Assembly: GCF_000469155.1 (NCBI RefSeq)
Contig: NZ_AWXE01000001.1
Span: 310,001 to 374,000, forward strand
Source of the DNA: Candidatus Micropelagos thuwalensis
GTDB lineage: Bacteria > Pseudomonadota > Alphaproteobacteria > RS24
Direction: 5' to 3'
DNA: 64,000 bases
Part shown: positions 10,587 to 29,459 of the stretch, one piece after another
How positions within the stretch are numbered: position 1 is the stretch's first letter
Layout: each line of letters starts with the position of its first letter
Program-made: the position numbers and the translations under genes
The notes under the pieces: model-generated
What the model saw: the letters and a program-made list of their open reading frames with translations, nothing else
Told to the model about the DNA's origin: nothing
Database searches by the model: none

Positions 10587-10719
10587 GCCTTCACCTTTAC
10601 TCGTATTAAGCCAATATTGAGTTATAGTAACATTGATATACATCAATCATCTTTTGAGATAATAGGCCAAACTGAATTATTTGGTTACACTAATTAGACT
10701 TGCGTTAGAGGATCATCCA

Positions 10720-13383: not shown

Positions 13384-14010
13384 TTGCAAGTTTATTATCA
13401 AAATTTAATGGGTTGTCTGATAAAGAGCGGACGCTCGCTAATTAAAAGTGCCTTAGCTTTAACGTTTATAATAATATCTCTGTTGTCATCACAGGTGAGT
13501 GCATCAGAAGATCCTTTTGATGAAAAGCTTGTGCTTAGACGTCAGACTCTAGTCGTGAGAGATATTGAAAAATCTTTGGCTCTGTACCGTGATGCTATAG
13601 GTATGGAAGTCATTTATGATCAAGTTATAAAGCGACCACTGTCAGGGTCTGACAGAGAGCAAGTGCTTAGATTAATATTTCTAAAAGCTTCTAATCAGTA
13701 TACGGGCGTTTTAGGTCTTGTAGACTATGAATATGGATATCCTGACCATCCAGCGCATACAAAACCCATACGACATGAAGGGTTTACGCCAGGGAATTCC
13801 ATTCTAGTCTTTAATTCAAATGAACTTTCCGAGTCTTGGCCATTAATTGAAAAATCTCCGGGCGTTAAAATTATTACAAAACCAAAATTAACGACTTATC
13901 CAGGATATGGTGGGGAAGGAATTATCCGAGTAATGGTTAGTAAATTCTATGATCCGGATGGGTTTTTAGTAGAGATGAACCAATTATTAGATCCGCTTGA
14001 GCCACAATAA
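13384..14010 (+). CDS. Exported VOC-fold (glyoxalase/dioxygenase-like) protein
   Basis: 208-residue protein with an N-terminal signal peptide (hydrophobic LALTFIIISLLSS, cleavage near VSAS-ED, about residue 42) and one vicinal-oxygen-chelate domain. The VOC signatures are TLVVRDIEKSLALYRDAIGM and the C-terminal FYDPDGFLVEMNQ. The usual first metal-ligand His is not visible (the position reads RQTLVV). TTG 13384 is taken as start because GGGGAGG at 13372-13378 is ideally spaced. It overlaps the next gene by one base (TAATG). It is close in motif pattern to the cytosolic VOC protein at 14922-15386. Its role is unknown; export makes binding or modification of a periplasmic small molecule likely. 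Confidence 0.85.
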   Translation: MQVYYQNLMGCLIKSGRSLIKSALALTFIIISLLSSQVSASEDPFDEKLVLRRQTLVVRDIEKSLALYRDAIGMEVIYDQVIKRPLSGSDREQVLRLIFLKASNQYTGVLGLVDYEYGYPDHPAHTKPIRHEGFTPGNSILVFNSNELSESWPLIEKSPGVKIITKPKLTTYPGYGGEGIIRVMVSKFYDPDGFLVEMNQLLDPLEPQ

Positions 14011-14918
14011 TGTCTAAATTTAAAAAATATAAGATTTATGAGTTAAATGTTTTTTTCTTAATGTCATTATTTGTCCTAGCAACAAATAAACCAGCTATTG
14101 CTCAAGGTCAGGATACCTCTCGCTCTGAACGTGATCAGCAGGTAATTGCCGCATTGTTGCCGGGAGAATATTTTAATGCCAACCAATCATATTTTGATAA
14201 ACGCACTGCTAAGTTACCTGCCCAAAATGCCTATAAACTTGCTATTCGGGCAGCGGGAAACGACCGGCATCCAAAAAGTTTTAAAATTTCAGTTGGTAAG
14301 AAGGGTGAAAAGCCAAAAGAATTGGTTGCGGTAATTTCTGATGCAAAAAATTCAGATGTTACAAAGCTAACCATATTATCTGAGAATAAAAGTGATACAC
14401 CTTGTACTCTATATTTTTCTCGTCAGGCAGGGCAATTCGGTACTGTGTCAAATAAAGACTGCAATAAGAACCCAAGCATGCCTAAATCTATTGAACTATC
14501 GGAAAGACATTTATGGTGGCACACTACGTCAGATGGTTTAATAAAATTCGATAAAAGCAGAAAATTTACTTGTCACGCCGATATACCTGGGGTGGGAGGC
14601 GGCAGAAATGAGCCATACAAGAGGTATTCTGATTTAAAAATCCACGATCAGGGTGGCCAAGAATGGATTAAAACGGACACAGGCAGAAATCTTGCTATTC
14701 GTCTTTTCCGAGTGGATTGGCCAATCAATAATTTTGATGGTGAATTTGCGCGCGACTCTCTAGCAATGTATGTGATTGAGAAAAACAGAGATGGGTCGTT
14801 TAAAGAGCATGGTTATGCTTTCGTGGATGATGAGGCTGACCGTATTGGATTAAATCTTAAATGGATATTGGTCTCATGTTACTTGCAATCTAACAAAGTA
14901 ACTACACCTGAGATGTAA
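14010..14918 (+). CDS. Exported CpcT/CpeT-like protein
   Basis: 302-residue exported protein: hydrophobic N-terminal segment (FFLMSLFVLATN, cleavage near AIA-QGQ about residue 32), then a domain resembling the CpcT/CpeT family. The resemblance rests on AALLPGEYFNANQSYFDKR near the start of the mature protein, the middle CHADIPG region and a DLKIHDQGGQEWIKTDTG segment. The family was named for phycobiliprotein lyases, but it also occurs in bacteria without phycobilisomes, where its role is unknown. A lyase function is not claimed. It is coupled to the upstream exported VOC gene. The family call is moderate and needs a profile search. Confidence 0.6.
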   Translation: MSKFKKYKIYELNVFFLMSLFVLATNKPAIAQGQDTSRSERDQQVIAALLPGEYFNANQSYFDKRTAKLPAQNAYKLAIRAAGNDRHPKSFKISVGKKGEKPKELVAVISDAKNSDVTKLTILSENKSDTPCTLYFSRQAGQFGTVSNKDCNKNPSMPKSIELSERHLWWHTTSDGLIKFDKSRKFTCHADIPGVGGGRNEPYKRYSDLKIHDQGGQEWIKTDTGRNLAIRLFRVDWPINNFDGEFARDSLAMYVIEKNRDGSFKEHGYAFVDDEADRIGLNLKWILVSCYLQSNKVTTPEM

Positions 14919-14921
14919 CTT

Positions 14922-15386
14922 TTATCCCGCAAGCCGTTGATTACATTCAAAAAAGTGTCCATCAGGGTCAAATAATCCTACCGATCGAACACGGACTTCC
15001 CCACCATTTGCGGCAGGGTATACAGCTTCACTTAATGGTGCACGTATTTTAATATTATATAATTGTGCAGTTTTAAATATTTCTTCAGCATCCTTAACGC
15101 CAGCTACAAAAACAGGTTGACCGTAGTCAAAGTCAAAGTTTATTGGGGGTGGTGGTGTTGATGGATTTAACCATTGAAGAAGTCCAATTTTACCTATTTC
15201 AGGATCTAGCGACTCCATAATAACAAGTCTTGTTAAATCTCCAGCTTTTCCACCTGGTAACAACTCACCAGAGAGCGTAATTTCATCGTCATAATATTTT
15301 TTCATTCCCAGAACTTTTTCATAGAAAATAAGGGACTTTTCCATGTTCCGTACTTTTAATGTTGTTCTCTTAATGATTGCTGTCAT
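14922..15386 (-). CDS. VOC-fold protein, cytosolic
   Basis: 154-residue single VOC-domain protein without signal peptide. Motifs are RTTLKVRNMEKSLIFYEKVLGM at the start and GLFDPDGHFFECNQR at the end; these parallel the exported VOC protein at 13384-14010, so they are paralogues. As there, the first metal-ligand His typical of glyoxalase I or extradiol dioxygenases is not visible, while the terminal Glu (FFECNQ) is. It converges with the CpcT-like gene with only 3 bases between the stops. Function unknown. Confidence 0.88.
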   Translation of the reverse strand: MTAIIKRTTLKVRNMEKSLIFYEKVLGMKKYYDDEITLSGELLPGGKAGDLTRLVIMESLDPEIGKIGLLQWLNPSTPPPPINFDFDYGQPVFVAGVKDAEEIFKTAQLYNIKIRAPLSEAVYPAANGGEVRVRSVGLFDPDGHFFECNQRLAG

Positions 15387-15477
15387 TGTATTCCTATAAT
15401 TTATATTTAAATTGCATGAATATTATAACAATATAACATTATAAGTATTTATAATTCGTTTTTTTGTGAGAAACTCA

Positions 15478-15915
15478 ATGAAAAAAGTAAGGTTCCAAAG
15501 AGCAAATTATGTTGTTTCCGATTTAGAACGTTCATTAGATTTTTATTGCAATGTTCTTGGATTCAAACTTGTTTTTCAAAAAGTATCAGACACAGACTCA
15601 TACACATATGATGTTTTTGAGATTGATCGGTCAGCAGGACTAAGGTTTGCAGTTTTAGCGACTGACACTCAGGAAAATGTGATGGCTTTGACCGAAGTCA
15701 CCGGTTTAGATTTGCCCTCAAAATCTCCGCCATTTACGTCTGCTATTGTACTTGATGTGAGCGACATTGATGACATAATCGCCGAGGTCAAAAATCGAGG
15801 TTTAACCTGTTACCGAGAAGATCATCTTGTAACGCAAGATGGTAGGGAAGGCCGTGAATATGGCTTCCTTGATTATGATGGAAATTTAATTGTGATTTAT
15901 AAGATAAATAAATAA
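15478..15915 (+). CDS. VOC-fold protein, cytosolic
   Basis: 145-residue single-domain VOC protein. It shows QRANYVVSDLERSLDFYCNVLGF at the N-terminus and EYGFLDYDGNLIVIYKI at the C-terminus, the two half-site signatures of the fold. The metal-ligand pattern is incomplete (Asn-Tyr instead of His). ATG 15478 is preferred to GTG 15466. It is the first gene of a probable operon with the alpha/beta hydrolase (10-base gap) and the exported two-domain VOC protein. Function is unknown; VOC members commonly act as dioxygenases, isomerases or lyases on metal-chelated substrates. Confidence 0.85.
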   Translation: MKKVRFQRANYVVSDLERSLDFYCNVLGFKLVFQKVSDTDSYTYDVFEIDRSAGLRFAVLATDTQENVMALTEVTGLDLPSKSPPFTSAIVLDVSDIDDIIAEVKNRGLTCYREDHLVTQDGREGREYGFLDYDGNLIVIYKINK

Positions 15916-15925
15916 GCATCAAGAT

Positions 15926-16729
15926 ATGTGTCAGACTCAGCAAATCAAAAAGAATTATTATTATGATGGTCTGAATCATATTCATTACCGAATAGCGGGT
16001 GATGCTAAATCTAAGCTTCCACTCGTTTGCTTCCATATGTCGCCATATAGTGGTGATCAGTTTGTTTTCTTACAAAAAGAATTAAGTGCCGAACGTTTGG
16101 TTTTATGTCCAGATACACCCGGTTACGGAAATTCTGATGCACCATCAACTCCACCCAGAATAGAAGATTATGTTGAGCTACTAATGTCGTTATGTGACAG
16201 ATTGGGTTTGGATATATTCAACGTTATGGGGTTTCATACTGGAAGTGTGATAGCCCTGGAAATGGGTAGATCCTTTCCTGATCGTATTAAAAAAATTATT
16301 CCGATTGGGATCCCCCTGATGGAGGCGGCACAGCAGAAGGAATTAAGTGAACAATATTCTGTTGAACGTGGTTATTTTTCTGAAGAAGAGTTTCTGTCTA
16401 ATAGATGGAAGCAAGGACTCGTTAATCGTGGCGGTCAATCCAATGAACGTTTTTTATCATATTTCTCTGATAGTCTTTCAGCTGGTGTCGAGAGAGGGAA
16501 TTGGGGATTTGCTGCTGTTTTTAAATTCGCACTTAGGGAGTGTCTAGCAGAAATTAACCAACCTGTGCTTATTCCGCTTCCAAATGAAAGTTTAAAAATG
16601 AATTCATTAGAAGCTTCAAAATTTCTAATAAACGCACAGACAATAGATTGGTCACACATGTCTAGTGATTTGTTTGAAGTTAATTTTAAAGAAATCGCTG
16701 ATGCCTTTAATATTTTTTTGGATAAATAA
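15926..16729 (+). CDS. Alpha/beta hydrolase-fold protein with His at the nucleophile position
   Basis: 267-residue alpha/beta hydrolase-fold protein. The oxyanion-side segment PLVCFHMSPYSGDQFVF, the DTPGYGNSD loop and the C-terminal His region (IDWSHMSSDLF) are normal. The nucleophile elbow, usually GxSxG, reads GFHTG with His104 where Ser, Cys or Asp is expected. The protein is otherwise intact, so it either belongs to a His-elbow branch of the fold or is non-hydrolytic (for example a lyase or binding protein). It sits between two VOC genes with gaps of 10 and 2 bases, so it probably works in the same pathway. No signal peptide. Confidence 0.85.
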   Translation: MCQTQQIKKNYYYDGLNHIHYRIAGDAKSKLPLVCFHMSPYSGDQFVFLQKELSAERLVLCPDTPGYGNSDAPSTPPRIEDYVELLMSLCDRLGLDIFNVMGFHTGSVIALEMGRSFPDRIKKIIPIGIPLMEAAQQKELSEQYSVERGYFSEEEFLSNRWKQGLVNRGGQSNERFLSYFSDSLSAGVERGNWGFAAVFKFALRECLAEINQPVLIPLPNESLKMNSLEASKFLINAQTIDWSHMSSDLFEVNFKEIADAFNIFLDK

Positions 16730-16731
16730 AA

Positions 16732-17793
16732 TTGATTATAACCCAGCCATATTTTCTGTTTCAGACACTCTTTAAATTTTTAATTTTAATGTGTTTATTT
16801 TCATATCCTAAAGCCCATGCTGAAGAAAAATTAATTACTGAAGGTTTTGAAGAAGTGGTTTTGATAACGGCTGATCATAGTTTGTGGCATCGTTTTTTTA
16901 CTTACCACGCTGGTTGGAAAAAAATTGATAAAGGCATAAGTGATGAAAATTGGATGACATATTGGGGGCTTGAAAATTATCAGGCCAGTTATGAGCTTTA
17001 TCAAAACCCTGGAAGTAATAAGGGGCGCGTCCGCGTCTTGAAATTTACTAAACCTGGTGGATATATAGCGCCAACTATTCGGTCGCACAGTCAAAGTTGG
17101 GATACGGGTGGTATTTTCGATTTCAATCTACGCATTAAAGATTTAGAGCATACAAAAAAATATCTGACATTAGACGGCTGGAAGGCACCAACAGATCCAA
17201 TAGAATTCCGCTTTGGAAAATTCCATGTTAAAGAATGGTTGCCTATTGGTCCTGATGGTGTGCAGCTCGCATTAATTGAACGTATAGATCCCCCCTTAGA
17301 GGGTTGGCCATATTTAAAAAAAATGTCTAGAAGCTTTAATGCCACAATGATTGTTGACGATTTATCTGCTGCCGAAAAGTTTTGGCGGGATATGCTAGGT
17401 TTTAAGAGCTATCTATATCACAAGGGGGCATCACCCGAGCCAGGGAAAAATGTTTTGGGACTACCGCATAATTTGGCCACTACTATTCAAAGAGAGGTTC
17501 AAATATTACATCCAACGGGGAAAAATGATGGTAGCATCGAATTATTAAAGTTTCATGGCGCAACTGGATATGATTTCAGCAATGCATCAAAACTCCCCAA
17601 TAGGGGGATATCCAGCCTCAGATTCCCTGTTAAAAATATTCGCAAATTAGTTGCCCGTGCCCATACCTTTGGTATTGAGCCATTCATGATTGGAAATAAA
17701 TTACCTTTCATGAAAAATCAAAGTGCAGATTTTGTTGCTTTTAAAGCTCCTGGCGGTGCAATCATTGAGTTTTTTCAAATTTTAAATAATTAA
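16732..17793 (+). CDS. Exported protein with two VOC domains
   Basis: 353-residue exported protein: signal peptide up to about residue 30 (FKFLILMCLFSYPKAHA), then two VOC-like modules (about residues 38-185 and 200-350). It is clearly paralogous to 26096-27172: shared features are EEVV at the start, H..WDTGG in the first module, LP.NLATT, GYDFS and PNRGISSLRFPVKNI in the second. The TTG at 16732 lies 2 bases after the previous stop and gives a proper signal peptide; the next ATG (residue 20) would shorten it severely. Last gene of the VOC-alpha/beta hydrolase-VOC operon. No enzymatic role is known; periplasmic location is inferred. Confidence 0.82.
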   Translation: MIITQPYFLFQTLFKFLILMCLFSYPKAHAEEKLITEGFEEVVLITADHSLWHRFFTYHAGWKKIDKGISDENWMTYWGLENYQASYELYQNPGSNKGRVRVLKFTKPGGYIAPTIRSHSQSWDTGGIFDFNLRIKDLEHTKKYLTLDGWKAPTDPIEFRFGKFHVKEWLPIGPDGVQLALIERIDPPLEGWPYLKKMSRSFNATMIVDDLSAAEKFWRDMLGFKSYLYHKGASPEPGKNVLGLPHNLATTIQREVQILHPTGKNDGSIELLKFHGATGYDFSNASKLPNRGISSLRFPVKNIRKLVARAHTFGIEPFMIGNKLPFMKNQSADFVAFKAPGGAIIEFFQILNN

Positions 17794-17812
17794 ATTTATT
17801 TGAGTAACTTTC

Positions 17813-18730
17813 TCAATGTCCCCCACGAGGTAATTTGCTGCCCTCTAATAAGTTTTTAAAAACTGTCCAACTTGTTTGGTTTGGACGTTGATCATCCAAT
17901 GGAGGCGGTTTTTTATATGTTGGTTCACGTTCATTAATATAATTTTTTAAGTTGACTGATAGGTCTTCAAATTCATCGACTTTCCAAGACATGGCATGTG
18001 CATAAAGAACACCTTCTCGACCCTGCATTTCCATCCAAGGTAAATAATCCGAAATACGGCTCCATCCTCCACCTCGTACTTTAGTTGAATCATTATCATT
18101 TAATAAATCATCAAGCGAACCAAAGGATGTAAACATTTCAGCAGCATGATATGCGCCTCCAACATATTTTTGATAATCACCTTGAAGCACATTGTGATAA
18201 AAAAGTGGTATAGTTTGCTGATTGTACCAACTATCTTCAGTTACTATGTCCGGCCATTTAATTGTTGGTTCACCATCTTTATTTCTTGCAAAAAATCCTT
18301 GACCAAAATTTACAGGATCATTAGCCACATGAATTACATTAACTTCTCGACCTAACCACGGGTTTTCCCATTTATCCAAAATTTCATTGGTTTTGGGATC
18401 CAGATAAAGCATTATTTCTCTGCTTACAGTGCGGAAGCCAGTGCCACGTTTTTTATCTTTCACTGTTCCACATTGTCTAATGTTCATCCCTTCAACGTTA
18501 AATAACTTCTGATCAGGTTCTCCACGTCTACGGGAGTAAATTTCGCCATGCCAGGTATAAATTACAGTTTTACCATCAACTGTTGAGCAAGTGTCTTTGC
18601 GCATTGCCATGAGCTGGCCATCGGGTGTGCTTAAATCAATTTTTGATTTTGTTTGGGCGGGTAGGGAATGAGTTGAGGTAACTAAAATTAAAAGTGTTAA
18701 GGAAAGTTTTAAAAAGTGTTTTCTAAGCAT
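17813..18730 (-). CDS. Exported DUF1838-family protein
   Basis: 305-residue protein with a signal peptide (LSLTLLILVTSTHSLPAQ). The body matches DUF1838: YTWHGEIYSRRRGEPDQ, LFNVEGMNIRQC, LYLDPKTNEILDKWENP and VIHVANDPVNFGQG are characteristic. The family is widespread in proteobacterial catabolic loci rich in TonB receptors, but its biochemical role is unknown. It lies downstream of the second TonB receptor gene on the same strand, separated by a hairpin terminator, and converges with the VOC operon. It may be expressed by read-through or from its own promoter. Confidence 0.85.
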   Translation of the reverse strand: MLRKHFLKLSLTLLILVTSTHSLPAQTKSKIDLSTPDGQLMAMRKDTCSTVDGKTVIYTWHGEIYSRRRGEPDQKLFNVEGMNIRQCGTVKDKKRGTGFRTVSREIMLYLDPKTNEILDKWENPWLGREVNVIHVANDPVNFGQGFFARNKDGEPTIKWPDIVTEDSWYNQQTIPLFYHNVLQGDYQKYVGGAYHAAEMFTSFGSLDDLLNDNDSTKVRGGGWSRISDYLPWMEMQGREGVLYAHAMSWKVDEFEDLSVNLKNYINEREPTYKKPPPLDDQRPNQTSWTVFKNLLEGSKLPRGGH

Positions 18731-18754
18731 TTATAGTGTCATCCGTTTTTATAT

Positions 18755-18783
18755 AAAAAAGGCCGGCAATATTTGCCGGCCTT
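18755..18783 (-). terminator. Terminator hairpin after the second TonB receptor gene
   Basis: 11-bp perfect stem AAGGCCGGCAA/TTGCCGGCCTT with a 3-base loop. On the minus strand it is followed by a run of six T (A-run at 18755-18760), as expected 15 bases downstream of the TonB receptor stop codon at 18798. Confidence 0.88.
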
Positions 18784-18797
18784 AAATTTTTTGTCAA

Positions 18798-21245
18798 TTA
18801 GAAGCGTCTAGAGACCTTAACACCTAATTGTGATCCCTTACGGAAGGATCTGAATACAGCTCTTGGACCAAGTGCACTTTCATCAATACCATTGTCAACT
18901 GCTGCAGGAATTGTTCCTTGGCCTTGAAGAACATCAAACCATCTAGTGCCCATTGGTATACTATCTTCGTCTGTTAGATTTTTGCCAAATAACATTAAAC
19001 TCCAATCATCTGATCTAACACCCACTTGTGCTCCTAGGATTGTCGCTTCTCCAGTTTCAAAACCATTATGAACCTGGACAAATTTTGAGTCTTCATAAGT
19101 TAAGTCAGCATTTAGGAACATAACTAACCCGTTCTCCATAGGAAAATCTGCATTAATGTATGCACTAAACTGATTTTCAGATGTCATTGGAACCTGTTTG
19201 CCAGCTATGGAACAATCAGCTGCTGCGCCTGTCCATCTTCCATCAGGGTCATTATCTGGAATTCCATCACCATTAGCATCTACACGAGGCCTGTTCCAAG
19301 TTGAGTTATCATTTATGTCAAATGGAGCAATCTGAAAACCTCCAGAAGTGAGGGTAAATTGCATATCATCACAACCCTTAACAATTTCTGCATCTGTATA
19401 CGCATAGGTTAAACCCATTTGAAGATTATCTGAAGGAAATGCAGTTAACTCAAGTTCAAGGCCGTTTACCTCCACATCACCCTGATTAGAAGCAATGGAT
19501 GTAACTGCGCCCGCTGCAGTCGCGACGGGTGTAGTAAGTTGATAATTAGTAATTTCATTTTTATATGCTGAAATATTAGTAATTAACTTACCGTCCATAA
19601 ATGTTGACTTTAAGCCTAATTCAATAGCTTCAACTTCCTCTTCATCATATGAAGGTATGCCAGCTGCAACTCCATTTGTACCGTTTACACCTCCTGATTT
19701 GTTGCCTTCAGAATAACTCGCGTATAACAGCGTATCATCTGAGACTTTATAATTAGCAACAAAACGTGGGGCGAACCCATCAAAAGATACTGATTGGTTC
19801 AAATTGTTGTCAGCAAAAGATTTTTCTTCATCATAAAACCTTCCCTCTGCAGATAGTGATAGATTGTCAGAAACATCATATTCAAGCATAGCAAAAAATG
19901 CTTCGTTTTCTATTTCGTTTAAGCTGGCAAATACATGTGCAGGAGCTTGAAGAGTAGCTGAGGATTCTTCATTTGAGAATTCATAAATGAATGCTCCAAC
20001 CATCCAGCTAAGATTACTATCGTTGTTAGATCTCAAAGTAATTTCAAGTTGGTTGTCTTCGTATTCATTAATACTATTAGTGCTAAACAGTGGGCTTCTA
20101 GCAAACGGTCTCTGGATTTCTACTGCCCCAAAAAAAGCTAGTGGATCTAAGAACCATAATGGATTGCCTAATGGGGTTGGCGCAAAAGTAGTTGCTCCAA
20201 GTTGATGGTCAGAGTCTGCGCCAGTTTGTCTCTCCTCATCTCTGAAGGCAAACTTTGCGGATAAGACTGTTTCTCCCACCTCATAATCAGCTGCAAGCAT
20301 TATATTGAATGTTTCTCTGTCAACCCCCATAAAGGTGTTACCATCAGTATCTTGTGTTCCCTGTGATGCAGGAGGTACAACACCACAAAAATATTGATTT
20401 ACATTTGTGCTTGGCCCTGAGTAGTAATTGTTTGATCTGTATCCAGGATAGCAATTGTTGTTGTCGGATTTAAATAATGAGAATGCTCTTGGGCCATCCT
20501 TATCTTCATTGTAGCTAATATTTAATTTTAGACTTGCGCCATTATCACTTTCGGTTTTTAGAGCAAGTTGAACTGATTTGCTTTCTTCTTCTCCAAGCAT
20601 TGCTCCATCAAAGGCATTAGTATATTCGCCGCCGTATTCATATTGACGATAGGACAATGACATTCCAGAGTTTTCGCTTAATGGGCCGCTAACTGATCCA
20701 TATAAATTATAAGTATCATGCTCTGCTATCTCTGCTTTAACGTTATATTCAGTTTCATCAGAAATACCTTTGGTAATAAAATTGATGGCACCTGCATATG
20801 AATTCCTTCCGAATAGAGCAGATTGAGGCCCCTTAACAACTTCAACCCTTTCAATCATATTCATATCTAGTGAAGATACCTCACCGGAGTAATATTGTCC
20901 GTCAATAAAGTAGGCGGTACCGGCCTCAACACCGTATTGAACACCTGCCAGAATATTACCTGCACCTCGAACAACGGGTCTTTCTGTTGCTCTACCAAAT
21001 GCTTGAGAGTAACTGAAGCCTGGTGTGTATCTTGCTATGTCGTCAATATCGTTAATATTTAAATTATCAATTGTCTCTCGTGTCAGTGCTGTTACAGCAA
21101 CAGGAATGTCTTGAAGACTTTCATCAACTTTACGAGCAGTAACAATTATTTCGTCAACATTTTGTTGTGCAAATGAAGGCGAGGAAATCATAGTTGTCGA
21201 TATCGCCAAACCCAGTGATATCTGCGATAAAATTTTAATATTCAT
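18798..21245 (-). CDS. TonB-dependent outer-membrane receptor, large
   Basis: 815-residue TonB-dependent receptor. Signal peptide (LGLAISTTMISSPSFAQ), TonB-box-like DEIIVTA, plug domain (QDIPVAVTAL, RPVVRGAGNI, VEVVKGPQSALFGRN) and a long barrel ending VSRRF with the terminal Phe. ATG 21245 is preferred over the ATG at 21257 because the four codons between them contain the ribosome site GGAGGGG. The extracellular loops hold a Ca-loop-like stretch (DANGDGIPDNDPDG). It is distinct from the first receptor but of the same non-siderophore style. The neighbouring DUF1838, VOC and amine oxidase genes suggest uptake of an organic substrate processed in the periplasm. Confidence 0.95.
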   Translation of the reverse strand: MNIKILSQISLGLAISTTMISSPSFAQQNVDEIIVTARKVDESLQDIPVAVTALTRETIDNLNINDIDDIARYTPGFSYSQAFGRATERPVVRGAGNILAGVQYGVEAGTAYFIDGQYYSGEVSSLDMNMIERVEVVKGPQSALFGRNSYAGAINFITKGISDETEYNVKAEIAEHDTYNLYGSVSGPLSENSGMSLSYRQYEYGGEYTNAFDGAMLGEEESKSVQLALKTESDNGASLKLNISYNEDKDGPRAFSLFKSDNNNCYPGYRSNNYYSGPSTNVNQYFCGVVPPASQGTQDTDGNTFMGVDRETFNIMLAADYEVGETVLSAKFAFRDEERQTGADSDHQLGATTFAPTPLGNPLWFLDPLAFFGAVEIQRPFARSPLFSTNSINEYEDNQLEITLRSNNDSNLSWMVGAFIYEFSNEESSATLQAPAHVFASLNEIENEAFFAMLEYDVSDNLSLSAEGRFYDEEKSFADNNLNQSVSFDGFAPRFVANYKVSDDTLLYASYSEGNKSGGVNGTNGVAAGIPSYDEEEVEAIELGLKSTFMDGKLITNISAYKNEITNYQLTTPVATAAGAVTSIASNQGDVEVNGLELELTAFPSDNLQMGLTYAYTDAEIVKGCDDMQFTLTSGGFQIAPFDINDNSTWNRPRVDANGDGIPDNDPDGRWTGAAADCSIAGKQVPMTSENQFSAYINADFPMENGLVMFLNADLTYEDSKFVQVHNGFETGEATILGAQVGVRSDDWSLMLFGKNLTDEDSIPMGTRWFDVLQGQGTIPAAVDNGIDESALGPRAVFRSFRKGSQLGVKVSRRF

Positions 21246-21364
21246 TGGCCCCTCCATAAAAAGTAGTTAAATTTATTTGTATTATGGTTATATCAATAAA
21301 ACATTAGAGTAATATTTCTATAATTTTTTGATATAAATCATATTTATTGAATTATTGTTTTTGA

Positions 21365-21577: not shown

Positions 21578-21693
21578 TCTCAAACCCTAAAAAGATTAAT
21601 CAAAAATAAATTAATTCGAAGAAGAAAGAAAAGGATACGAAAATTTTATAAAAATACTTAGATTTTTGAGAATTTTTCCCATAAATTTGATAT

Positions 21694-22143: not shown

Positions 22144-22144
22144 A

Positions 22145-23611
22145 TTATGATGTGAAATCTATCAATTCAAATGCAGCACGACTACCTGAGGCGCAAGCTG
22201 CCTCCATCCCTGCAGAGAATTTAGCCATATGTTCACCTGCAAAAAACAAGCCTGGGTGATTTTTAAAAGAATTTTTAATGAGTTCACGCGCTAAATTTTT
22301 TATTTGTCCGGGCTTCCAGTAAGACCATGCGCCTGCTGAGTATTGAGATTTTGACCAACTATGAATATGTAAATTCTCTAGACTCCCCCGCGCTGATGGA
22401 CGAATTTTAAAAATCTCATCCATCAAAACCTTCTCTTGTTGTTCATTGGGTATTCTATCAAACTCGATAGCTTTGCGGCCATTAATGAGCCCCCATAGAA
22501 TTTGATTATTTCCACCCTTTCGATCATCAAGGGTAAAAATACGTTCTGTGAGACCATCGCTCCACATATTAACTCCAAGACCATCTTCTTCCCAGAAAGG
22601 CCTTTTGACTTTTAAGAAGTAAGCAGTAACCGGGGCGTAACCAATATTATTAATTATTTTTTGAATATTCGGGGGAAGGGAGGGGGCAAAGTTTACATGT
22701 CTCAATGCTGAAAATGGAATTGCGATTATTATTGTGTTTGAACTGTAGCGTTCACCATTTTTGCAGGTAACTACGTATTTATTGCCATGGAATTCAATTA
22801 ATTTAACGGGCTTGTTTTTGTGAATTTCATTACTTAATGTTACCGCCATTGCATCAGTTATTCTGGAAGTACCTCCCAGAACCCTTTTAGAGGGGCCAAA
22901 CTCTTTTTCATCTTCATAAGCCCGGTATTTTCTTATTTCATTTAATGCTGATAGTTCATTTATATCTAATGTATTTAAAGCAACAGATATTAACCGCCTA
23001 ACTTCTTCATTGGCGCCTTTATTGATTAGATATTGCTCAAGAGAAATATCTAGATTATGGGCGGAGTCTTCAAGCCAGGTTAAAGTGTCTCCTAGTGGAG
23101 TAGTGTCTATAAATTTACTTAATAAAAAAGGGGGTGGTAAATGTTTTAAATTTTCTGGCAATTTGTTTATGTTGGATTTAGCCCACATTTTTTGACTTAC
23201 TGACTCTCCCCCAATAGATATGCAAAGACTTGTGTCAGCAGCTGGGAATGGTTCAAGCTCAACATTCATTTCATCTGCGAGTGTTTTAAAATGTGCATAG
23301 CCTCCCCCTACTTGAAGACCCCCTGCATCTGGGGAGCCTTCAATATCATCTAGTGTCATTACACGCCCGCCATATCTGTTTGACGCTTCGAGAATTCTTA
23401 CATTGTATCCTTCAGATTTAAGAGTGCGAGCTGCGTTCATGCCTGACAAACCAGCACCGATGACCAAAACATCGGAGTGTTCAATACTCCCTCTGGAGGG
23501 GTTAATAAAAGAGGGTGCAAAAACGGCACTAGCAATTATTGTTTTTGTAAAATTTCTACGGGTAAATTTTTGCATTAACAATTCATCTATGTTTGCTTTT
23601 ATATGCTTCAC
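22145..23611 (-). CDS. Tat-exported flavin amine oxidase
   Basis: 488-residue FAD-dependent amine oxidase-family protein. A twin-arginine motif (FTRRNFTK, residues about 16-23) precedes a short hydrophobic stretch, so the folded flavoprotein is probably exported to the periplasm. The dinucleotide motif VIGAGLSGMNAARTL, ILEASNRYGGRVMT and the C-terminal FAD motif LFFAGEHMAKFSAGMEAAC are all present. The GTG at 23611 gives an N-terminus (IDELLMQKFTRRNF) typical of Tat amine oxidases; ATG 23575 is an alternative. Substrate unknown: monoamines, polyamines or a ring compound. Confidence 0.88.
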   Translation of the reverse strand: MKHIKANIDELLMQKFTRRNFTKTIIASAVFAPSFINPSRGSIEHSDVLVIGAGLSGMNAARTLKSEGYNVRILEASNRYGGRVMTLDDIEGSPDAGGLQVGGGYAHFKTLADEMNVELEPFPAADTSLCISIGGESVSQKMWAKSNINKLPENLKHLPPPFLLSKFIDTTPLGDTLTWLEDSAHNLDISLEQYLINKGANEEVRRLISVALNTLDINELSALNEIRKYRAYEDEKEFGPSKRVLGGTSRITDAMAVTLSNEIHKNKPVKLIEFHGNKYVVTCKNGERYSSNTIIIAIPFSALRHVNFAPSLPPNIQKIINNIGYAPVTAYFLKVKRPFWEEDGLGVNMWSDGLTERIFTLDDRKGGNNQILWGLINGRKAIEFDRIPNEQQEKVLMDEIFKIRPSARGSLENLHIHSWSKSQYSAGAWSYWKPGQIKNLARELIKNSFKNHPGLFFAGEHMAKFSAGMEAACASGSRAAFELIDFTS

Positions 23612-23720
23612 AACAAAATTATATAAAATTGATTAGACAATATTGATTTAGGTCAACTGCTATTACGATAACGGAAATAAGATTTTATTCAAAATTACAT
23701 ATTAATTTTGGTATTTTTTC

Positions 23721-24758
23721 ATGGATGAAAATAAAAATTACAAATGGGTTGTTGCTCGTCGACCAAAAGGAAAGCCAGTAAAAAAAGATTTTGAGTTGGT
23801 TACAAGTGACATACCTGTAATAAGTGACGGTGAGGTGTTGCTTAAAACTCTGTACCTAGGTTTGGCACCAGTAATGCGTATGTATATGCAAGGTAATCCA
23901 ACCGCAGGTGAAAAGTCGCTAAATATTGGTGACATTATCCACGGTCGCGGGGTTGCAGAAATAATTGAAAGTCGAAATCCAGATTATAAAGTGGGTGAAA
24001 AAGTGCAGGGTCAAATCGGATGGCAAAGCTATAAAGCCTCGAAGCTTTCATTCTCTGAAAAATTTTTTAACTGCCCAGATAAAGGTATAAATTATGCCCA
24101 TTACACTGCGACGTTAGGTATGACTGGCTTGAGTGCATGGGGAGGCTTCTTAGATTGTGGTCAACCTAAAGAAGGAGATGTGGTTGTAGTTTCAGGTGCA
24201 GCTGGGGGCGTAGGTTCGATTGTTGTTCAATTAGCGAAAATTTATGGATGTAAGGTAATTGGTATTGCTGGTAGTGCGGAAAAATGTTTTTGGCTGAGTG
24301 AGCTCGGGGTTGACGAGGTAATTAATTACAAAAAGGAGAATGTTGATACTAGATTGGGACATTTATGCCCATCTGGCATAGATATTTACTTTGATAATGT
24401 TGGCGGTGAAATATTACAGGCGGCTTTAGAGCATTTGGCATTTGAAGCGAGGATAGTTTTATGCGGATCAATTTCTGAATATACGCAAATTAATTCTACT
24501 GGCCCGAAGAACTATACGAATTTGAGAAGGGTTAATGGGATGATGAAGGGGTTTTTTGTCTATAATTATTTAAATAAATTCGATAACTGTATGGAAGCAT
24601 TGGGGGGGTATATATCAAATAAAAAACTTATACCGAAACTCGATATTTCGGATGGAATAGAGACGATGCCTGAAGCATTAATGCGATTGTACGATAGGAA
24701 AAATTTTGGTGTTCAGTGCTGTCGTGTGAGAAGGGGACCCTATGACAACGCAATCTAA
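23721..24758 (+). CDS. NADP-dependent medium-chain reductase (PTGR/CurA-like)
   Basis: 345-residue zinc-independent medium-chain reductase of the leukotriene B4 dehydrogenase/curcumin reductase group, which reduces the double bond of alpha,beta-unsaturated ketones or aldehydes with NADPH. Signatures are RRPKGKPVKKDFE at the N-terminus, TLGMTGLSAWGGFLD and the cofactor motif SGAAGGVGSIVVQLAK near residue 155. No zinc-ligand cysteines. It overlaps the MFS transporter gene downstream by 17 bases, so the two are translated together. Confidence 0.9.
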   Translation: MDENKNYKWVVARRPKGKPVKKDFELVTSDIPVISDGEVLLKTLYLGLAPVMRMYMQGNPTAGEKSLNIGDIIHGRGVAEIIESRNPDYKVGEKVQGQIGWQSYKASKLSFSEKFFNCPDKGINYAHYTATLGMTGLSAWGGFLDCGQPKEGDVVVVSGAAGGVGSIVVQLAKIYGCKVIGIAGSAEKCFWLSELGVDEVINYKKENVDTRLGHLCPSGIDIYFDNVGGEILQAALEHLAFEARIVLCGSISEYTQINSTGPKNYTNLRRVNGMMKGFFVYNYLNKFDNCMEALGGYISNKKLIPKLDISDGIETMPEALMRLYDRKNFGVQCCRVRRGPYDNAI

Positions 24759-26091
24759 TATAGAAACTCAAGTTAATAAATTTAACTACCCCAGTCCTTT
24801 GCGCGCTTGGATGTTAGTTCTTTTGCTAACAGTTGCTTATGTTTTTTCATTCATTGATCGCTGGATACTGGGACTGCTTATTGAGCCCATAAAGGCTGAT
24901 ATGGGCTTAACAGATTTTCAAATTGGTCTGATGCTGGGCCCTGCCTTCGCAATTTTTTATGCCACTCTTGGTGTGCCTTTAGGGTGGGCCGCTGATCATG
25001 TAAAACGCGTCTGGATTGTAGCTGCAGGTATCATAGTCTGGTCTATGGCAACTGCAGCATCTGGATTAGCAAAAACTTTCCCTCATTTATTTGTAGCTCG
25101 TATGAGTGTTGGGGTTGGAGAGGCAACATTGAGCCCCTGTGCTATGTCGATGATAACTGACAGCTTTCCTGCAGAAAAAAGAGGTTTACCTATTGCGTTT
25201 TATTCTGCTGCCCTGAGTGTTGGAGCTGCAATAGCTAATTTGTTAGGTGCTGCAATATTAACTTGGGCCAACCAAACTAGTAGTTTGTCTCTTCCGATTG
25301 TTGGAACTGTTGCACCATGGCAATTAACATTTTTTGTTCTTGGAATACCTGGAATTTTTTTAGGTATTATTTTTCTATTTTTAAAAGAACCTAAGCGCCA
25401 ACAAAATACAAACACAAATTTAGAGGTGCGCTCAAATCCCATTCATGTTCTAGGGTATATAAAACAACGTTTGGTGTTATTTGCATGCTTTATGAGTATT
25501 TTTTGTTATCTAACAATTACCGCCTATTCACAGGGATGGCTTGCACCAATGTTCCAAAGAACGTGGGGTTGGTCACCAGTGGACTATGCCCTTGTTAATG
25601 GTCTTGTATTACTCGCGATAGGCCCAATTTCAATCAGCTTGGCCGGTATCATATCTGATAAATGGTATCAAAATGGAAGAAAAGAAGCGCCATTAATAAT
25701 TGCTATCATTGGAACTCTAATAGTTTTGCCTACTGGTGTGATGGCTCCTTTGATGCCCAGTGGAGAGTTGTCGATAGCAGTCTATGCTATCAATACAGTT
25801 GGTATAACATGGATGTCAGCGACAGGAATTACGGCTTTGGTAAATATTGTTCCTTCAAATATCCGAGCGCAAATGGTGGCATATTATTATATGACTATAA
25901 GTTTAGCGGGATTGTTTTTAGGGCCAACAATGGTCGGATATATTAGTGACAATTATTTTGAGGCAAACTCATTACGTAATGCAATGTCCATAGTCCCTCT
26001 GATTTTTGGACTACCTGTTTTAATGCTTATACCAATTACCAGAAAACTTTATCTTCGAGAGTATAATGCTGTAAATACCGAAGCTAATTAG
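24742..26091 (+). CDS. MFS transporter, spinster-like
   Basis: 449-residue major facilitator superfamily permease with about 12 transmembrane helices. Family motifs are DRWILGLLIEPIK after helix 1, PLGWAADHVKRVWI (the loop 2-3 motif) and RMSVGVGEATLSPCAMSMI in helix 4, of the type often called spinster-like. It begins inside the reductase gene at an ATG with AAGGGG upstream. Inner-membrane uptake or export of the molecule handled by the reductase is likely. It converges with the exported VOC gene with 4 bases between stops. Confidence 0.9.
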   Translation: MTTQSNIETQVNKFNYPSPLRAWMLVLLLTVAYVFSFIDRWILGLLIEPIKADMGLTDFQIGLMLGPAFAIFYATLGVPLGWAADHVKRVWIVAAGIIVWSMATAASGLAKTFPHLFVARMSVGVGEATLSPCAMSMITDSFPAEKRGLPIAFYSAALSVGAAIANLLGAAILTWANQTSSLSLPIVGTVAPWQLTFFVLGIPGIFLGIIFLFLKEPKRQQNTNTNLEVRSNPIHVLGYIKQRLVLFACFMSIFCYLTITAYSQGWLAPMFQRTWGWSPVDYALVNGLVLLAIGPISISLAGIISDKWYQNGRKEAPLIIAIIGTLIVLPTGVMAPLMPSGELSIAVYAINTVGITWMSATGITALVNIVPSNIRAQMVAYYYMTISLAGLFLGPTMVGYISDNYFEANSLRNAMSIVPLIFGLPVLMLIPITRKLYLREYNAVNTEAN

Positions 26092-26095
26092 TAGT

Positions 26096-27172
26096 TTATT
26101 GGGGTTTATAGAATTCAATGCGTGCTCCATCCGGAGTATTGATAGACAATGCATCAAGTAAACCAAGTTTTGGAATGTAAATTTTTGAACTTTCATGATC
26201 AATATTAACACCCCTCTTTAAAAGTAATTGTTTCGTGGTCTTAATATCTCGAACAGGAAAACGCACTGAGAGAATTCCATAATTAGGTGCAACACAATTT
26301 TTAGAAAAGTCGTACCCTTTTAGATCAATAGTTTCAATCATCTCCATACGTCCAAATTCTCCGGGTTTTGGAGAAACAATTGATGCTACATATCGAGATT
26401 GAGTTGTAATATTTGCAGGAATACCGATTGGCATTGGCTTAGGCTTTTTAGATACATATGGCTTGCCATGATAAAAAGTGTGAAACCCAAGCTTTTCTGT
26501 GAAAAATTTAAACGAATGATTTCGATTTCTGACCATTTGCATTATGTTGAATGGGGCGCTTAAAATATCAAAATCAGGAATTGTTTCAGGAAGTGATGGT
26601 GAAAGTCTTTCGTAGCCTTGAATTTGAATACCCTGTGGACCTCTAAAAATAACTACTTTTAGTTTTGATGCACCAAAATCTAATGGGGTAATGGGTGTTT
26701 CAGTCCACCATCCTAACTCAATTGCATCTTCATATATTTTTTCAATATTTTTCATGCGCACCATTAAGCTAAAATAACAACCACTATCCCATGCATGACC
26801 TCCCGGACGCATGGGCTTTTGTTTTCCAGCATTATTAAATTTAATCAGTCGAATTTGACCCGTGGGAAATTTTTTATGACCAAGTAACAAGCTTTCAGCA
26901 GTTACATTTTCATTAATTTCAGTAGAGACCCCAAGAAATGATATTTCCGATTTATCAGCAAAACCTCTCCATAGAACTTCGTATTTTCCTATCTTAGTAA
27001 AGAATGCTGCAATACCTTCCAAATCTCTTACAATAATAACCACTTCTTGCCATGGTTGATCAGCAATAGAGCTATTATAAACTTTCTGTGAACCATGAAC
27101 TGGAATAATAAGTGAATAAAAAACGAAAAAGACAGCAACTATTAGACCTGAAAAATTTAATAACCTTCTCAT
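26096..27172 (-). CDS. Exported protein with two VOC domains, paralogue of 16732-17793
   Basis: 358-residue exported protein with a hydrophobic signal segment (LIVAVFFVFYSLIIPVHG) and two VOC-like modules (about residues 40-190 and 205-356). Shared with 16732-17793: QEVVIIV, GHAWDSG, IPANITTQ, KGYDFS, PNYGILSVRFPVRDI and the final GARIEFY. Its start overlaps the stop of the AhpD-like gene by 4 bases (ATGA), so the pair is translationally coupled. Neither VOC module shows the full His/His/Glu metal triad. A periplasmic small-molecule role is inferred. Confidence 0.82.
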   Translation of the reverse strand: MRRLLNFSGLIVAVFFVFYSLIIPVHGSQKVYNSSIADQPWQEVVIIVRDLEGIAAFFTKIGKYEVLWRGFADKSEISFLGVSTEINENVTAESLLLGHKKFPTGQIRLIKFNNAGKQKPMRPGGHAWDSGCYFSLMVRMKNIEKIYEDAIELGWWTETPITPLDFGASKLKVVIFRGPQGIQIQGYERLSPSLPETIPDFDILSAPFNIMQMVRNRNHSFKFFTEKLGFHTFYHGKPYVSKKPKPMPIGIPANITTQSRYVASIVSPKPGEFGRMEMIETIDLKGYDFSKNCVAPNYGILSVRFPVRDIKTTKQLLLKRGVNIDHESSKIYIPKLGLLDALSINTPDGARIEFYKPQ

Positions 27173-27717
27173 AATTTGCAGCTGTCCTCTTTTTCAACCA
27201 TTTCAAATGCAAATAAAAAATGGGCCATACCAGATAGAAGTGCAAATATCATTGATAATTCGAGTATCTGACCATCATTAAAATTATTTCGTAAATCTTC
27301 ATATATTGACTGCGAAAGTTTTTGACCTTTAGCATGAAGAGACATTAAGTCAGCTAGTCTCATAACTGATTTATCAGCCTCATCAAAAACTGGGTTATTT
27401 ACATCATCGATAAAAGAGATTTTATCGCCAAGTCCCGCTGCATGTGCGTCAACTCTGTTTCCCTTATTGCAGGATTTGCATCCATGAACCTCAGATAAAC
27501 GTAATCTTCCTAGTTCCTTATATTTTATCGGGACATTCCCACTATAAAATAACTGCTCATAAAAGGAACTCATATACCATTCAAATAAGTCGGGGGCATG
27601 GCCCATTGCGCTGATAAGTCTGGCTTCGCCTCGTCTCTCCAAAGATCTTTCAAACGCGGCTTGCATCTTATCGCTTAAGTCTGATTTATCCAAAAATGGA
27701 AAAATTGGTCTGTCCAT
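27169..27717 (-). CDS. Carboxymuconolactone decarboxylase/AhpD-like protein
   Basis: 182-residue all-helical protein of the carboxymuconolactone decarboxylase/AhpD fold. The CxxC motif is present as GCKSCNKGNRVDAH at about residues 80-92, with the family-typical LRLSEVHGC lead-in and a C-terminal ELSMIFALLSGMAHF helix. AhpD-type proteins are peroxidase reductants; other members act in aromatic degradation. It is the first gene of a two-gene operon with the exported VOC protein and is divergent from the MFS transporter. Cytosolic. Confidence 0.85.
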   Translation of the reverse strand: MDRPIFPFLDKSDLSDKMQAAFERSLERRGEARLISAMGHAPDLFEWYMSSFYEQLFYSGNVPIKYKELGRLRLSEVHGCKSCNKGNRVDAHAAGLGDKISFIDDVNNPVFDEADKSVMRLADLMSLHAKGQKLSQSIYEDLRNNFNDGQILELSMIFALLSGMAHFLFAFEMVEKEDSCKL

Positions 27718-27809
27718 TTAATTCTGTCCTAGTAAATGTATTAGATTAATTATCTAATGCCTGTCATACATTGCCACAGTTGCTTATCAATTTCAAAAGG
27801 GTGCGTTAT

Positions 27810-28931
27810 ATGTCCTCAACCAGAGTTCTTTTACCAGCCATCATCACCTCAGGTATGGTCGGATATCAATGTCTGATTTCTATGCCTTTAATGGTAGGCG
27901 CTCTGGTCGATTACCGCGGGTTTACTGTCGGAACAGTTGGTATTGTTGGGACACTTGAACTCTTAGGTATGGCTGTAGCCACTATTTGCATTTCACAATT
28001 CATCCATAAAATAGATACTGCACGTCTCGGACTCGTATGCGCTGTTATATTATCCGGCATGCAAATCATGTCGGGTCTAAATTTCTTCCCTCAGACATTT
28101 TATTTGGAGAGAGCAACCACTGGATTAGCGGCGGGGATACAAACTGGGATAATGGCGCTGATCATAGCTAGATCAAGTTCCCCAGAAAGATTGACAGCTC
28201 TGGCTATTCTTGGTGTCGCTTTTTTTGGCGGGATTCTTAATATCATTATGCCTCATATTATTGCACAAGCTGGTGCAGGGGGAGGGTATTTATCTCTAGC
28301 TGGAATAACGGCTTTATGTTTGCCGGGTTATTTTTTCTTTCCCCCGCGTTTAGATGACACGGAAAGGAATCAAACGCCATTTCGGGCTAAATTTCTGATA
28401 CTTGCCGGATTTGCCTTTATTTTTGGTGTAGCGAGTTCTGGCATGTGGGCTTTTACAGAACGAATGGGTGTCGCTATTGGCATGAACGTGACTGATGTTG
28501 GTTATTTACTTGGTATTGGCACATTTTTTGGATTAGTAGGCGCAGGCATAGCTGCTGTCATTGGTGATAAATTTGGCAGTGCATTTCCAATCATAATCGC
28601 CACCTCGGTACTAACCCTGGGTGGCTTTGCCATTCCTCAAGTTTCATATGTACCTTTTTTCATTGCATTATTTCTGATTTTCAGGTTTGCCCAGAACTTC
28701 AACGACCCTTTTGTGGTGGGTCTTGTTGCGCGTCATGACCAACAGGGAAGTTTAATAGCCTTAAATACAGGTTTTGGGCTTCTTGGTTCTGCATTTGGGC
28801 CATTAACGGCGGGATTAATGGTTGGTGATGACCAAAATTATGAAAAATTAGGTTGGCTATATTTTATATTTACATCCTTTGCATTCTTTTTGTTCTATAA
28901 CTTCATAAAATATATAAAGAAAATTAACTGA
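27810..28931 (+). CDS. MFS transporter
   Basis: 373-residue MFS-type permease with about 12 helices, no soluble domain. The typical loop 2-3 motif is weak (QFIHKIDTARLG), but helix pattern, Gly-rich helix 4-5 region (TTGLAAGIQTGIMALII) and the pseudo-repeat in the second half (GDKFGSAFPIIIAT) fit. ATG 27810, preceded by AAAAGGG, is preferred to a TTG at 27771. It converges on the SnoaL-like gene with 4 bases between stops. Substrate unknown. Confidence 0.85.
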   Translation: MSSTRVLLPAIITSGMVGYQCLISMPLMVGALVDYRGFTVGTVGIVGTLELLGMAVATICISQFIHKIDTARLGLVCAVILSGMQIMSGLNFFPQTFYLERATTGLAAGIQTGIMALIIARSSSPERLTALAILGVAFFGGILNIIMPHIIAQAGAGGGYLSLAGITALCLPGYFFFPPRLDDTERNQTPFRAKFLILAGFAFIFGVASSGMWAFTERMGVAIGMNVTDVGYLLGIGTFFGLVGAGIAAVIGDKFGSAFPIIIATSVLTLGGFAIPQVSYVPFFIALFLIFRFAQNFNDPFVVGLVARHDQQGSLIALNTGFGLLGSAFGPLTAGLMVGDDQNYEKLGWLYFIFTSFAFFLFYNFIKYIKKIN

Positions 28932-28935
28932 ATAA

Positions 28936-29418
28936 TTAGTTCGCATCAGGCGTCTTTTGATCAATATCAACGTCAATAAGCCATTTTCCTAAGTCCGATT
29001 TTTTGTAAACAATCAGAGACCGGCCGCCGACAGTCTCAATCCTTTCTTCGAAAGGATAATCTAAATAGAATTTAGCGACGACGACGGCTATATTTTGATT
29101 AATACTGATTTTTTCATAATCCAATCGCATATCTACATTTTTTTTGCCAATTCGAGACTCAAAATAGGCCTGAATAGCCTCTTTCCCCTTCAATGCAGGC
29201 TTACCATTTAAAGCGACAAGAGCATCCTCAGTATATTGATCCATAAATTTTTCAATATTTGAGGAGCGATATAACTCCAGCCATTTCTTTCCCAGAGTTT
29301 TGATTTCAAGGATGTCAGTATTAATGGGATTGTCATCAGCCAATAAGACTGAAGGAACCATTATTATTTTTAAAATAATAAAACCAAACAAAAATTGATT
29401 TAACAGATAGCTCCTCAT
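28936..29418 (-). CDS. Exported SnoaL/NTF2-like protein
   Basis: 160-residue protein: hydrophobic signal segment (FLFGFIILKIIMVPSVLLA) followed by an NTF2/SnoaL-like cone fold of the DUF4440 type. Characteristic segments are WLELYRSSNIEKFMDQYTEDALVAL and LKGKEAIQAYFESR, ending with GKWLIDVDIDQ. The family contains ketosteroid isomerase-like enzymes and non-enzymatic ligand-binding proteins. Export places it with the other periplasmic small-molecule-binding folds in this region. It is divergent from the membrane protein at 29460. Confidence 0.82.
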   Translation of the reverse strand: MRSYLLNQFLFGFIILKIIMVPSVLLADDNPINTDILEIKTLGKKWLELYRSSNIEKFMDQYTEDALVALNGKPALKGKEAIQAYFESRIGKKNVDMRLDYEKISINQNIAVVVAKFYLDYPFEERIETVGGRSLIVYKKSDLGKWLIDVDIDQKTPDAN

Positions 29419-29459
29419 GAATTATTCCGATATCTTAAGAGAGTTAGTGGGGAAAAGTG

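Follow-up and report, generated by a model that had tools for sequence, protein, structure and literature searches.

The maleamate pathway of nicotine and nicotinate uses the amidase NicF/Ami, nicotinate fermentation ends with dimethylmaleate hydratase (DmdAB) and 2,3-dimethylmalate lyase, and itaconate/citramalate degradation relies on a CoA-transferase and a citramalyl-CoA lyase such as RipC. Other described routes employ a cyclic imide hydrolase followed by a half-amide hydrolase, as represented by the Pseudomonas putida imidase AAY98498 and by HxnM-HxnN of the Aspergillus nidulans nicotinate pathway, and the PuuE/HP0310 group includes characterised cyclic imide hydrolases (PMC9304392). Here we describe a catabolic island of Candidatus Micropelagos thuwalensis that resembles each of these routes in part, and whose right part occupies positions 1-30131 of a 64,000-nucleotide stretch of contig NZ_AWXE01000001.1 (positions 310,001 to 374,000, hereafter the window). 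The island extends over about 51 kb (C1:288.5-340.1 kb).

With a probability of roughly 0.6, we read the island as serving the import, periplasmic handling and breakdown of one or more large N-heterocycles via a cyclic imide, a reading built on enzyme families and gene neighbourhoods. An earlier note on this DNA had singled out positions 13384-29418 as a periplasmic VOC-protein system tied to a TonB receptor. The gene group that it described does co-occur in other genomes, but the system does not stand alone and rather supplies the import and periplasmic part of a catabolic island that is larger: the span splits the unit in half, the island reaches far to the left of 13384 and slightly to the right of 29418, and the conserved core enzymes are located to the left of 13384.

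The amidase-PuuE core and its recurrence

The conserved core comprises an isochorismatase-superfamily amidase, two PuuE-like hydrolases and a LeuCD paralogue (Table 1), together with a CaiB CoA-transferase and an HMG-CoA-lyase-like enzyme. The amidase has 4l07 (E=9e-28), 26st and 3ot4 as its best relatives in the PDB, of which 4l07 and 3ot4 are maleamate amidases. It keeps the Asp-Lys-Cys triad motif D..KxxxSAF..C (NVDLQ, LKKMPSAF and GSTSGCI), has counterparts sharing 60-72% identity in 17 further members of the class, and appears to be a maleamate-amidase-like enzyme. PuuE-A and PuuE-B are relatives of PuuE and HP0310 (NodB fold) whose scores in the PuuE NCBIfam model, 106-120, stay far under its cut-off of 425, and in other islands the amidase gene is directly followed by PuuE-A and then by PuuE-B. 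From their family membership and their linkage to the amidase, LeuCD and lyases, we propose that both could be cyclic imide hydrolases.

The island LeuC reaches 462 bits against the leuC cut-off of 560 and 535 bits against the copy of the Acidiphilium island, whereas a true LeuC is encoded separately on C4 (796 bits). A role in leucine biosynthesis as 3-isopropylmalate dehydratase was thus rejected, and we propose that the LeuCD paralogue could act as a substituted-maleate hydratase. The fumarate-reductase-like FAD enzyme, for which we propose succinate/maleate-type redox chemistry, has homologues of 41-50% identity in Novosphingobium islands and matches in L021, L022, L026 and L030, while homologues of the PrpD-like enzyme in Novosphingobium islands share 37-38% identity. 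Relatives of MmgE/PrpD, such as iminodisuccinate epimerase and cis-aconitate decarboxylase, act on unsaturated di- and tricarboxylates. The remaining core enzymes are encoded directly upstream of the window: a CaiB-family CoA-transferase, whose nearest relatives are CoA-transferases of the succinate-glutarate and mesaconate types, and an HMG-CoA-lyase-like enzyme (HMGL) above its subfamily cut-off. Together, the downstream enzymes (LeuCD, CaiB, HMGL, FAD enzyme and PrpD-like enzyme) belong to families handling C4- to C6-type di- and tricarboxylates.

Similar gene sets recur in other bacteria. Plasmids of Sphingomonas sp. JE1, Acidiphilium multivorum and Burkholderia plantarii contain the amidase-PuuE-PuuE order with LeuCD, to which they add either a lyase of the isocitrate lyase/phosphoenolpyruvate-mutase (ICL/PEP-mutase) family or CaiB with HMGL, and the amidase, PuuE-A and PuuE-B are also found in several further alphaproteobacteria. 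Both Alpha- and Betaproteobacteria have the module of imidase-like pair, amidase, LeuCD paralogue and C-C lyase, in some cases on the chromosome and in others on a plasmid, and the plasmid records label its genes polysaccharide deacetylase, isochorismatase and leucine biosynthesis. A region of ~95 kb on the Novosphingobium KACC 22771 megaplasmid brings most of the window families together, including the PrpD-like and fumarate-reductase-like enzymes, the two membrane proteins, a double VOC protein, the amine oxidase and DUF1838. Around DUF1838 genes of unrelated alphaproteobacteria, homologues of the DUF2269-like membrane protein, the amidase, the PuuE pair and LeuCD could be found besides TonB receptors and exported VOC proteins, and DUF1838 and a TonB receptor join the amidase/PuuE core in L019, L016 and Novosphingobium.

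The association was also quantified. Island loci from genomes G200, G295 and a congener contained 8.5 island families per 20 kb, compared with 0.25 in a control of 20 stretches of 20 kb (400 kb) from G200 and G295. Among 289 genomes of the class, the core amidase was present in four of the five with DUF1838 and in 14 of the 284 without it (Fisher p = 5e-5, a test that ignores relatedness, two of the four genomes with both genes being from one genus).

VOC proteins, putative import genes and probable history of the island

The earlier note counted five VOC-fold genes within 14 kb, and PF00903 is indeed above cut-off in five open reading frames there. Only eight PF00903 matches (E<=1e-3) occur in the whole 1.96-Mb genome, four of them in this stretch, so that the clustering is not due to chance. 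Signal peptides, called by a simple heuristic and not by SignalP, were supported for the three VOC proteins said to be exported, at 13384, 16732 and 26096. As for the two proteins described as double-domain paralogues, Pfam detects the C-terminal domain only, and the N-terminal half would also be VOC judging from length and alignment. Double-VOC protein 1 has homologues of 31-34% identity on Novosphingobium plasmids, and double-VOC protein 2 has matches of 25-28% on five Novosphingobium plasmids. Relatives of the VOC protein at 15466 in L015, L016 and L048 (35-39%) carry signal peptides, unlike that protein itself. The AlphaFold model of the VOC protein at 13384 (predicted local distance difference test score, pLDDT, 72) shows the VOC fold, and matches glyoxalases with Z up to 12.8 over 126-144 residues at a root-mean-square deviation of 3.6-5.0.

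In the single-domain VOC proteins of the islands (three groups), Arg replaces the His ligand of the first strand, with the Glu ligand lost as well in the 15466 group, and the C-terminal domain of the double-VOC proteins has Asn at the first-strand His position. The canonical first- and last-strand His/Glu metal ligands are thus missing from the island VOC proteins at the positions examined, although unusual ligands elsewhere are possible. An extradiol-type ring-cleaving dioxygenase function was set aside, since the canonical ligand residues are missing; for the same reason, of the binding or conversion of a compound suggested earlier, binding is favoured, and a binding or shuttle role is likelier for these proteins than metal-dependent oxygenation.

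The exported DUF1838 protein, the TonB receptor and the Tat (twin-arginine translocation) amine oxidase named in the earlier note were all confirmed at the family level, with export of DUF1838 supported by the heuristic and a Tat motif in the oxidase (Table 1). DUF1838 has a sole copy in the genome and adjoins TonB receptors in several others; no solved relative was retrieved by sequence search of the PDB, and its neighbourhoods in Streptomyces and Calothrix were uninformative on function. The adjoining receptor scores 264-268 bits against the DUF1838-adjoining receptors of L015, L016, L019 and L048. A neighbourhood search found exported VOC, DUF1838 and TonB receptor side by side in a different family of Alphaproteobacteria, in three of its genomes (L015, L016 and L048), where two exported VOC proteins are encoded on either side of DUF1838-TonB, and TonB receptor genes are kept beside catabolic genes in L015, L016, L019, L048, L050 and L054. 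The amine oxidase has monoamine oxidase (MAO)-type relatives in the PDB and homologues in L020, L022 and L050. Export of the SnoaL-like protein (28936) was weakly supported by the heuristic.

The CpcT-like label given to the protein at 14010-14918 did not hold. This protein has a 71% identical orthologue within the genus, and it had no Pfam match at E<=0.1 and no PDB-sequence or plasmid match; CpeT (PF06206) gave nothing in the genome at E<=10, whereas the cyanobacterial control matched. The CpcT-like identity was thus rejected. Its model, built from a two-sequence alignment, is mostly beta and too poor for use (pLDDT 43).

Table 1. Features of the island within the window (positions in the window; signal peptides by heuristic)
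Position	Strand	Feature	Family and relatives
22..420	+	SDR (short-chain dehydrogenase/reductase) dehydrogenase, 3' part, gene start upstream of window	PF13561; 65-68% to Novosphingobium island genes
426..1778	-	MmgE/PrpD-family enzyme	PF03972/PF19305; PDB relatives IRG1, IDS-epimerase (iminodisuccinate epimerase)
1782..3182	-	Fumarate/urocanate-reductase-like FAD enzyme (FAD_binding_2)	PDB 1d4d, E=8e-57
3218..4462	-	Beta-lactamase-fold serine hydrolase, N-terminal membrane/signal segment	PF00144; homologues in Novosphingobium islands
4582..6681	+	TonB-dependent receptor 1	PF00593/PF07715
7819..8436	-	LeuD-like small subunit, putative recruited hydratase	PF00694; homologues adjoin LeuC in islands
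8441..9817	-	LeuC-like large subunit, putative recruited hydratase	PF00330; C338, C398, C401 present
9915..10646	-	DUF2269-like polytopic membrane protein 1	Weak PF10027; 50-54% homologues in three other islands
10681..11388	+	Isochorismatase-superfamily amidase, maleamate-amidase-like	PF00857
11345..12343	+	PuuE-like hydrolase A, proposed cyclic imide hydrolase	PF01522; PDB relatives PuuE 3cl6, 3qbu
12343..13272	+	PuuE-like hydrolase B, paralogue	PF01522; PDB 1z7a/3cl6
13384..14010	+	Exported single-domain VOC protein	PF00903; signal peptide
14010..14918	+	Exported protein, no assigned family	Signal peptide
14922..15386	-	Cytosolic VOC protein	PF00903; 81% orthologue in L004
15466..15915	+	VOC protein without signal peptide	PF00903, 54.7 bits
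15926..16729	+	Alpha/beta hydrolase	PF00561; homologues in islands
16732..17793	+	Exported double-VOC protein 1	C-terminal PF00903; signal peptide
17813..18730	-	Exported DUF1838 protein	PF08894, 227 bits against cut-off 25; signal peptide
18798..21257	-	TonB-dependent receptor 2, adjoining DUF1838	PF00593/PF07715, complete
22145..23611	-	Flavin amine oxidase, MAO/LAAO (L-amino acid oxidase)-like, predicted Tat-exported	PF01593; Tat motif TRRNFT
23721..24758	+	Curcumin/prostaglandin reductase-like NADPH ene-reductase	NF058644 below cut-off; homologues in islands
24742..26091	+	MFS (major facilitator superfamily) transporter	PF07690; homologues in L018, L025, L050, L051
26096..27172	-	Exported double-VOC protein 2	C-terminal PF00903; signal peptide
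29457..30131	+	Polytopic membrane protein 2, proposed right end of island	No Pfam match; relatives in L025, L051, L052 and upstream at C1:308576

A second species of the genus (metagenome-assembled genome CPC66, labelled Rhodobiaceae, Alphaproteobacteria) has a contig of 6.9 kb on which the genes from the second PuuE-like hydrolase to the TonB receptor follow each other in the same order. Those at 13384-18730 are colinear there, share 70-87% amino-acid identity and have ratios of nonsynonymous to synonymous substitution (dN/dS) of 0.04-0.12, as under purifying selection, and are therefore real, selected genes. The island marker genes were not found in the 99%-complete congener G001, the island region has a higher AT content than most of the window's right part, and relatives are often plasmid-borne; horizontal transfer is therefore probable, and the locus is probably a horizontally moved catabolic island.

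The upstream part of the island (C1:288.5-310 kb) encodes, in addition to CaiB (58% identity) and HMGL (56-60%), an MFS transporter, a cytosolic double VOC protein (39%), a FAD_binding_4 oxidase, a CN-hydrolase with 55% identity to a gene adjoining DUF1838 in L015, a cupin, an aldehyde dehydrogenase (49%), DUF1330, GntR and a third membrane protein. At L055:17091-18260 (C1:307.1 kb) lies the gene of a protein that combines a class I methyltransferase domain with an additional N-terminal region and has homologues in L016, L021, L022, L050 and L051. Inside the island, an MFS transporter is split into two overlapping frames (7123-7797 and 6735-7157, minus strand), reflecting a frameshift, a pseudogene or a sequencing error, and just right of the island a Ser/Thr-rich protein of 818 amino acids with a signal-like N-terminal segment is encoded at 30672-33128 (minus strand). 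Elsewhere in the genome, a second catabolic locus (L057, C4:374.5-388 kb) contains GntR, CaiB, HMGL, a TonB receptor, a CitE-like lyase with similarity to RipC (C4:384 kb) and HydAB with 58-60% identity to relatives, and is probably a companion of the island. Plasmids of Thioclava and Terrarubrum (L028, L029) contain the same amidase with a 4-HPA (4-hydroxyphenylacetate)-3-hydroxylase-like gene, flavin reductase, leucyl aminopeptidase, amidases and ABC transporters, and may represent a different N-heterocycle cluster with the amidase in common.

Proposed route and competing explanations

In the proposed route, the TonB receptors, whose identity is clear from their families, would import the compound, which exported DUF1838, the single and double VOC proteins and the Tat amine oxidase, all predicted to be exported, could bind and oxidise in the periplasm, and MFS carriers would then take the fragments across the inner membrane. 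In the cytosol, the PuuE-like enzymes would open a five-membered cyclic imide, probably alkyl-substituted, the maleamate-amidase-like enzyme would free ammonia from the half-amide, and the fumarate-reductase-like and PrpD-like enzymes could tune saturation or geometry. The LeuCD paralogue would hydrate the substituted maleate, after which the CaiB CoA-transferase would activate the product and the HMG-CoA-lyase-like enzyme would cleave it to pyruvate and acyl-CoA. The chain would thus run from cyclic imide via half-amide, substituted maleate, malate and a malyl-CoA-type ester to pyruvate and acyl-CoA; for these cytosolic steps the enzyme families and their recurrent linkage are observed, and the reactions are deduced from them. 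This assignment would turn the module into a testable pathway for substituted cyclic imides and would give DUF1838 and the exported VOC proteins a metabolic context.

Several points weigh against this route. Allantoin, hydantoins or other cyclic amides could be the substrates that the PuuE-like proteins hydrolyse, and the ~95-kb Novosphingobium region may hold several pathways side by side. No PEP-mutase-type lyase was found near the island itself, the sole match in the genome being distant (46 bits, on C4), and the genes at 14010, 21694 (Lrp), 27771 (second MFS transporter) and 28936 (SnoaL) had no match in other islands, so that no relative from outside the genus supports them as members of the island; the SnoaL-like protein named in the earlier note is one of them.

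As a special case of the route, the imported compound might be a linear tetrapyrrole (chlorophyll/bilin) or an oxidation fragment thereof, an identification that we consider tentative and on balance unlikely. Capture and cleavage in the periplasm, by the VOC, DUF1838 and amine-oxidase proteins, would then give alkyl maleimides (methyl-ethyl-maleimide, methyl-vinyl-maleimide, hematinic acid), which the cytosolic core might, just as tentatively, convert to pyruvate and acyl-CoA. The oxidation of chlorophyll/heme is documented to yield methyl-, methyl-ethyl- and methyl-vinyl-maleimide as well as hematinic acid (PMC7318184), and such maleimides fit the proposed chemistry. The hydratase/lyase modules on pJE1, of which there are two separate ones, would match a pair of maleates with different substituents, such a large substrate would require TonB import, and oxoprolinase-type HydAB, suited to lactams, is present in islands and in the genome itself. 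A lipocalin-like DUF3598 gene also occurs just over the Pfam cut-off in some island loci. However, no tetrapyrrole-specific gene was found, heme oxygenase (PF01126, without a match in the genome at E<=1) and CpeT being the only ones searched for, the CpcT-like label failed, and the amidase/PuuE core also occurs without the TonB/DUF1838/VOC part. The literature likewise yielded no paper describing such a pathway, and nothing useful on DUF1838 or on the substrate of Sphingomonas sp. JE1. If true, the island would encode an aerobic route, so far undescribed, by which bacteria mineralise linear tetrapyrroles or fragments of chlorophyll, members of one of the most abundant classes of pigment, and bacteria might thereby act as a sink for nitrogen and carbon from tetrapyrroles.

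It is also doubtful, though conceivable, that the substrate is an alkaloid or another N-heterocycle of the pyrrolidine/pyridine type, degraded as in the nicotine-maleamate route, with the exported amine oxidase attacking a cyclic amine on the way to maleimide or maleamate. The distant 6-hydroxynicotine-oxidase relatives of this oxidase in the PDB, besides those of MAO type, the maleamate-amidase-like amidase and the origin of the plasmid hosts from soil, plant and sludge would agree with it, whereas small alkaloids need no TonB receptors and the amine oxidase is present in only part of the other islands. The nicotine pathway is not known to involve a PuuE pair, CoA-transferase or HMGL, which counts further against an alkaloid.

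It is improbable that the VOC proteins and a single TonB receptor form a periplasmic pathway complete in itself and bounded by 13384-29418: the grouping of exported VOC, DUF1838 and TonB does recur and is colinear in the second species of the genus, but the most conserved associated enzymes lie outside these bounds and four genes inside them have no counterpart in relatives. Ureide or hydantoin degradation, in which the PuuE-like proteins would be allantoinases and the isochorismatase would act on N-carbamoyl compounds as an amidase, hardly convinces either. In its favour, an allantoinase is the nearest named PuuE relative of solved structure and 26st is an N-carbamoylsarcosine amidohydrolase, but the PuuE scores fall far under the cut-off and the recurrent LeuCD and C-C lyase linkage has no obvious use for ureides.

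Comparison with known systems

The proposed breakdown via a cyclic imide shares parts with each of the known routes. As in the maleamate pathway, the island amidase appears to be a maleamate-amidase-like enzyme of isochorismatase fold, whereas imide-hydrolase-like genes are present and no dihydroxypyridine dioxygenase was noticed in the island. The LeuCD-type hydratase and ICL/PEP-mutase-family lyase of L025, L019 and L030 resemble the end steps of nicotinate fermentation; the genome studied here differs in having CaiB and an HMGL-like lyase, and its dicarboxylate would come via an imide. CoA activation and cleavage to pyruvate and acyl-CoA would likewise be common to itaconate/citramalate degradation, from which the island is set apart by its HMGL-like lyase and by a LeuCD paralogue linked to imidase-like genes.

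Among the VOC proteins, glyoxalase I and the extradiol dioxygenases share the fold, whereas the island proteins do not show the canonical metal ligands. Antibiotic-binding VOC proteins (TnmS, bleomycin resistance proteins) have the same ligand-binding fold, with TnmS1/TnmS3 among the Foldseek matches, but the island proteins are predicted to be exported, are in some cases double-domain, and are linked to a TonB receptor. Finally, both imidase routes resemble the island, at the level of families, in having a PuuE/HP0310-related imide hydrolase followed by an ammonia-freeing amide hydrolase; the island differs from them in its two PuuE paralogues, its isochorismatase-type amidase, the additional hydratase, CoA-transferase and C-C lyase, and its TonB/periplasmic front end.

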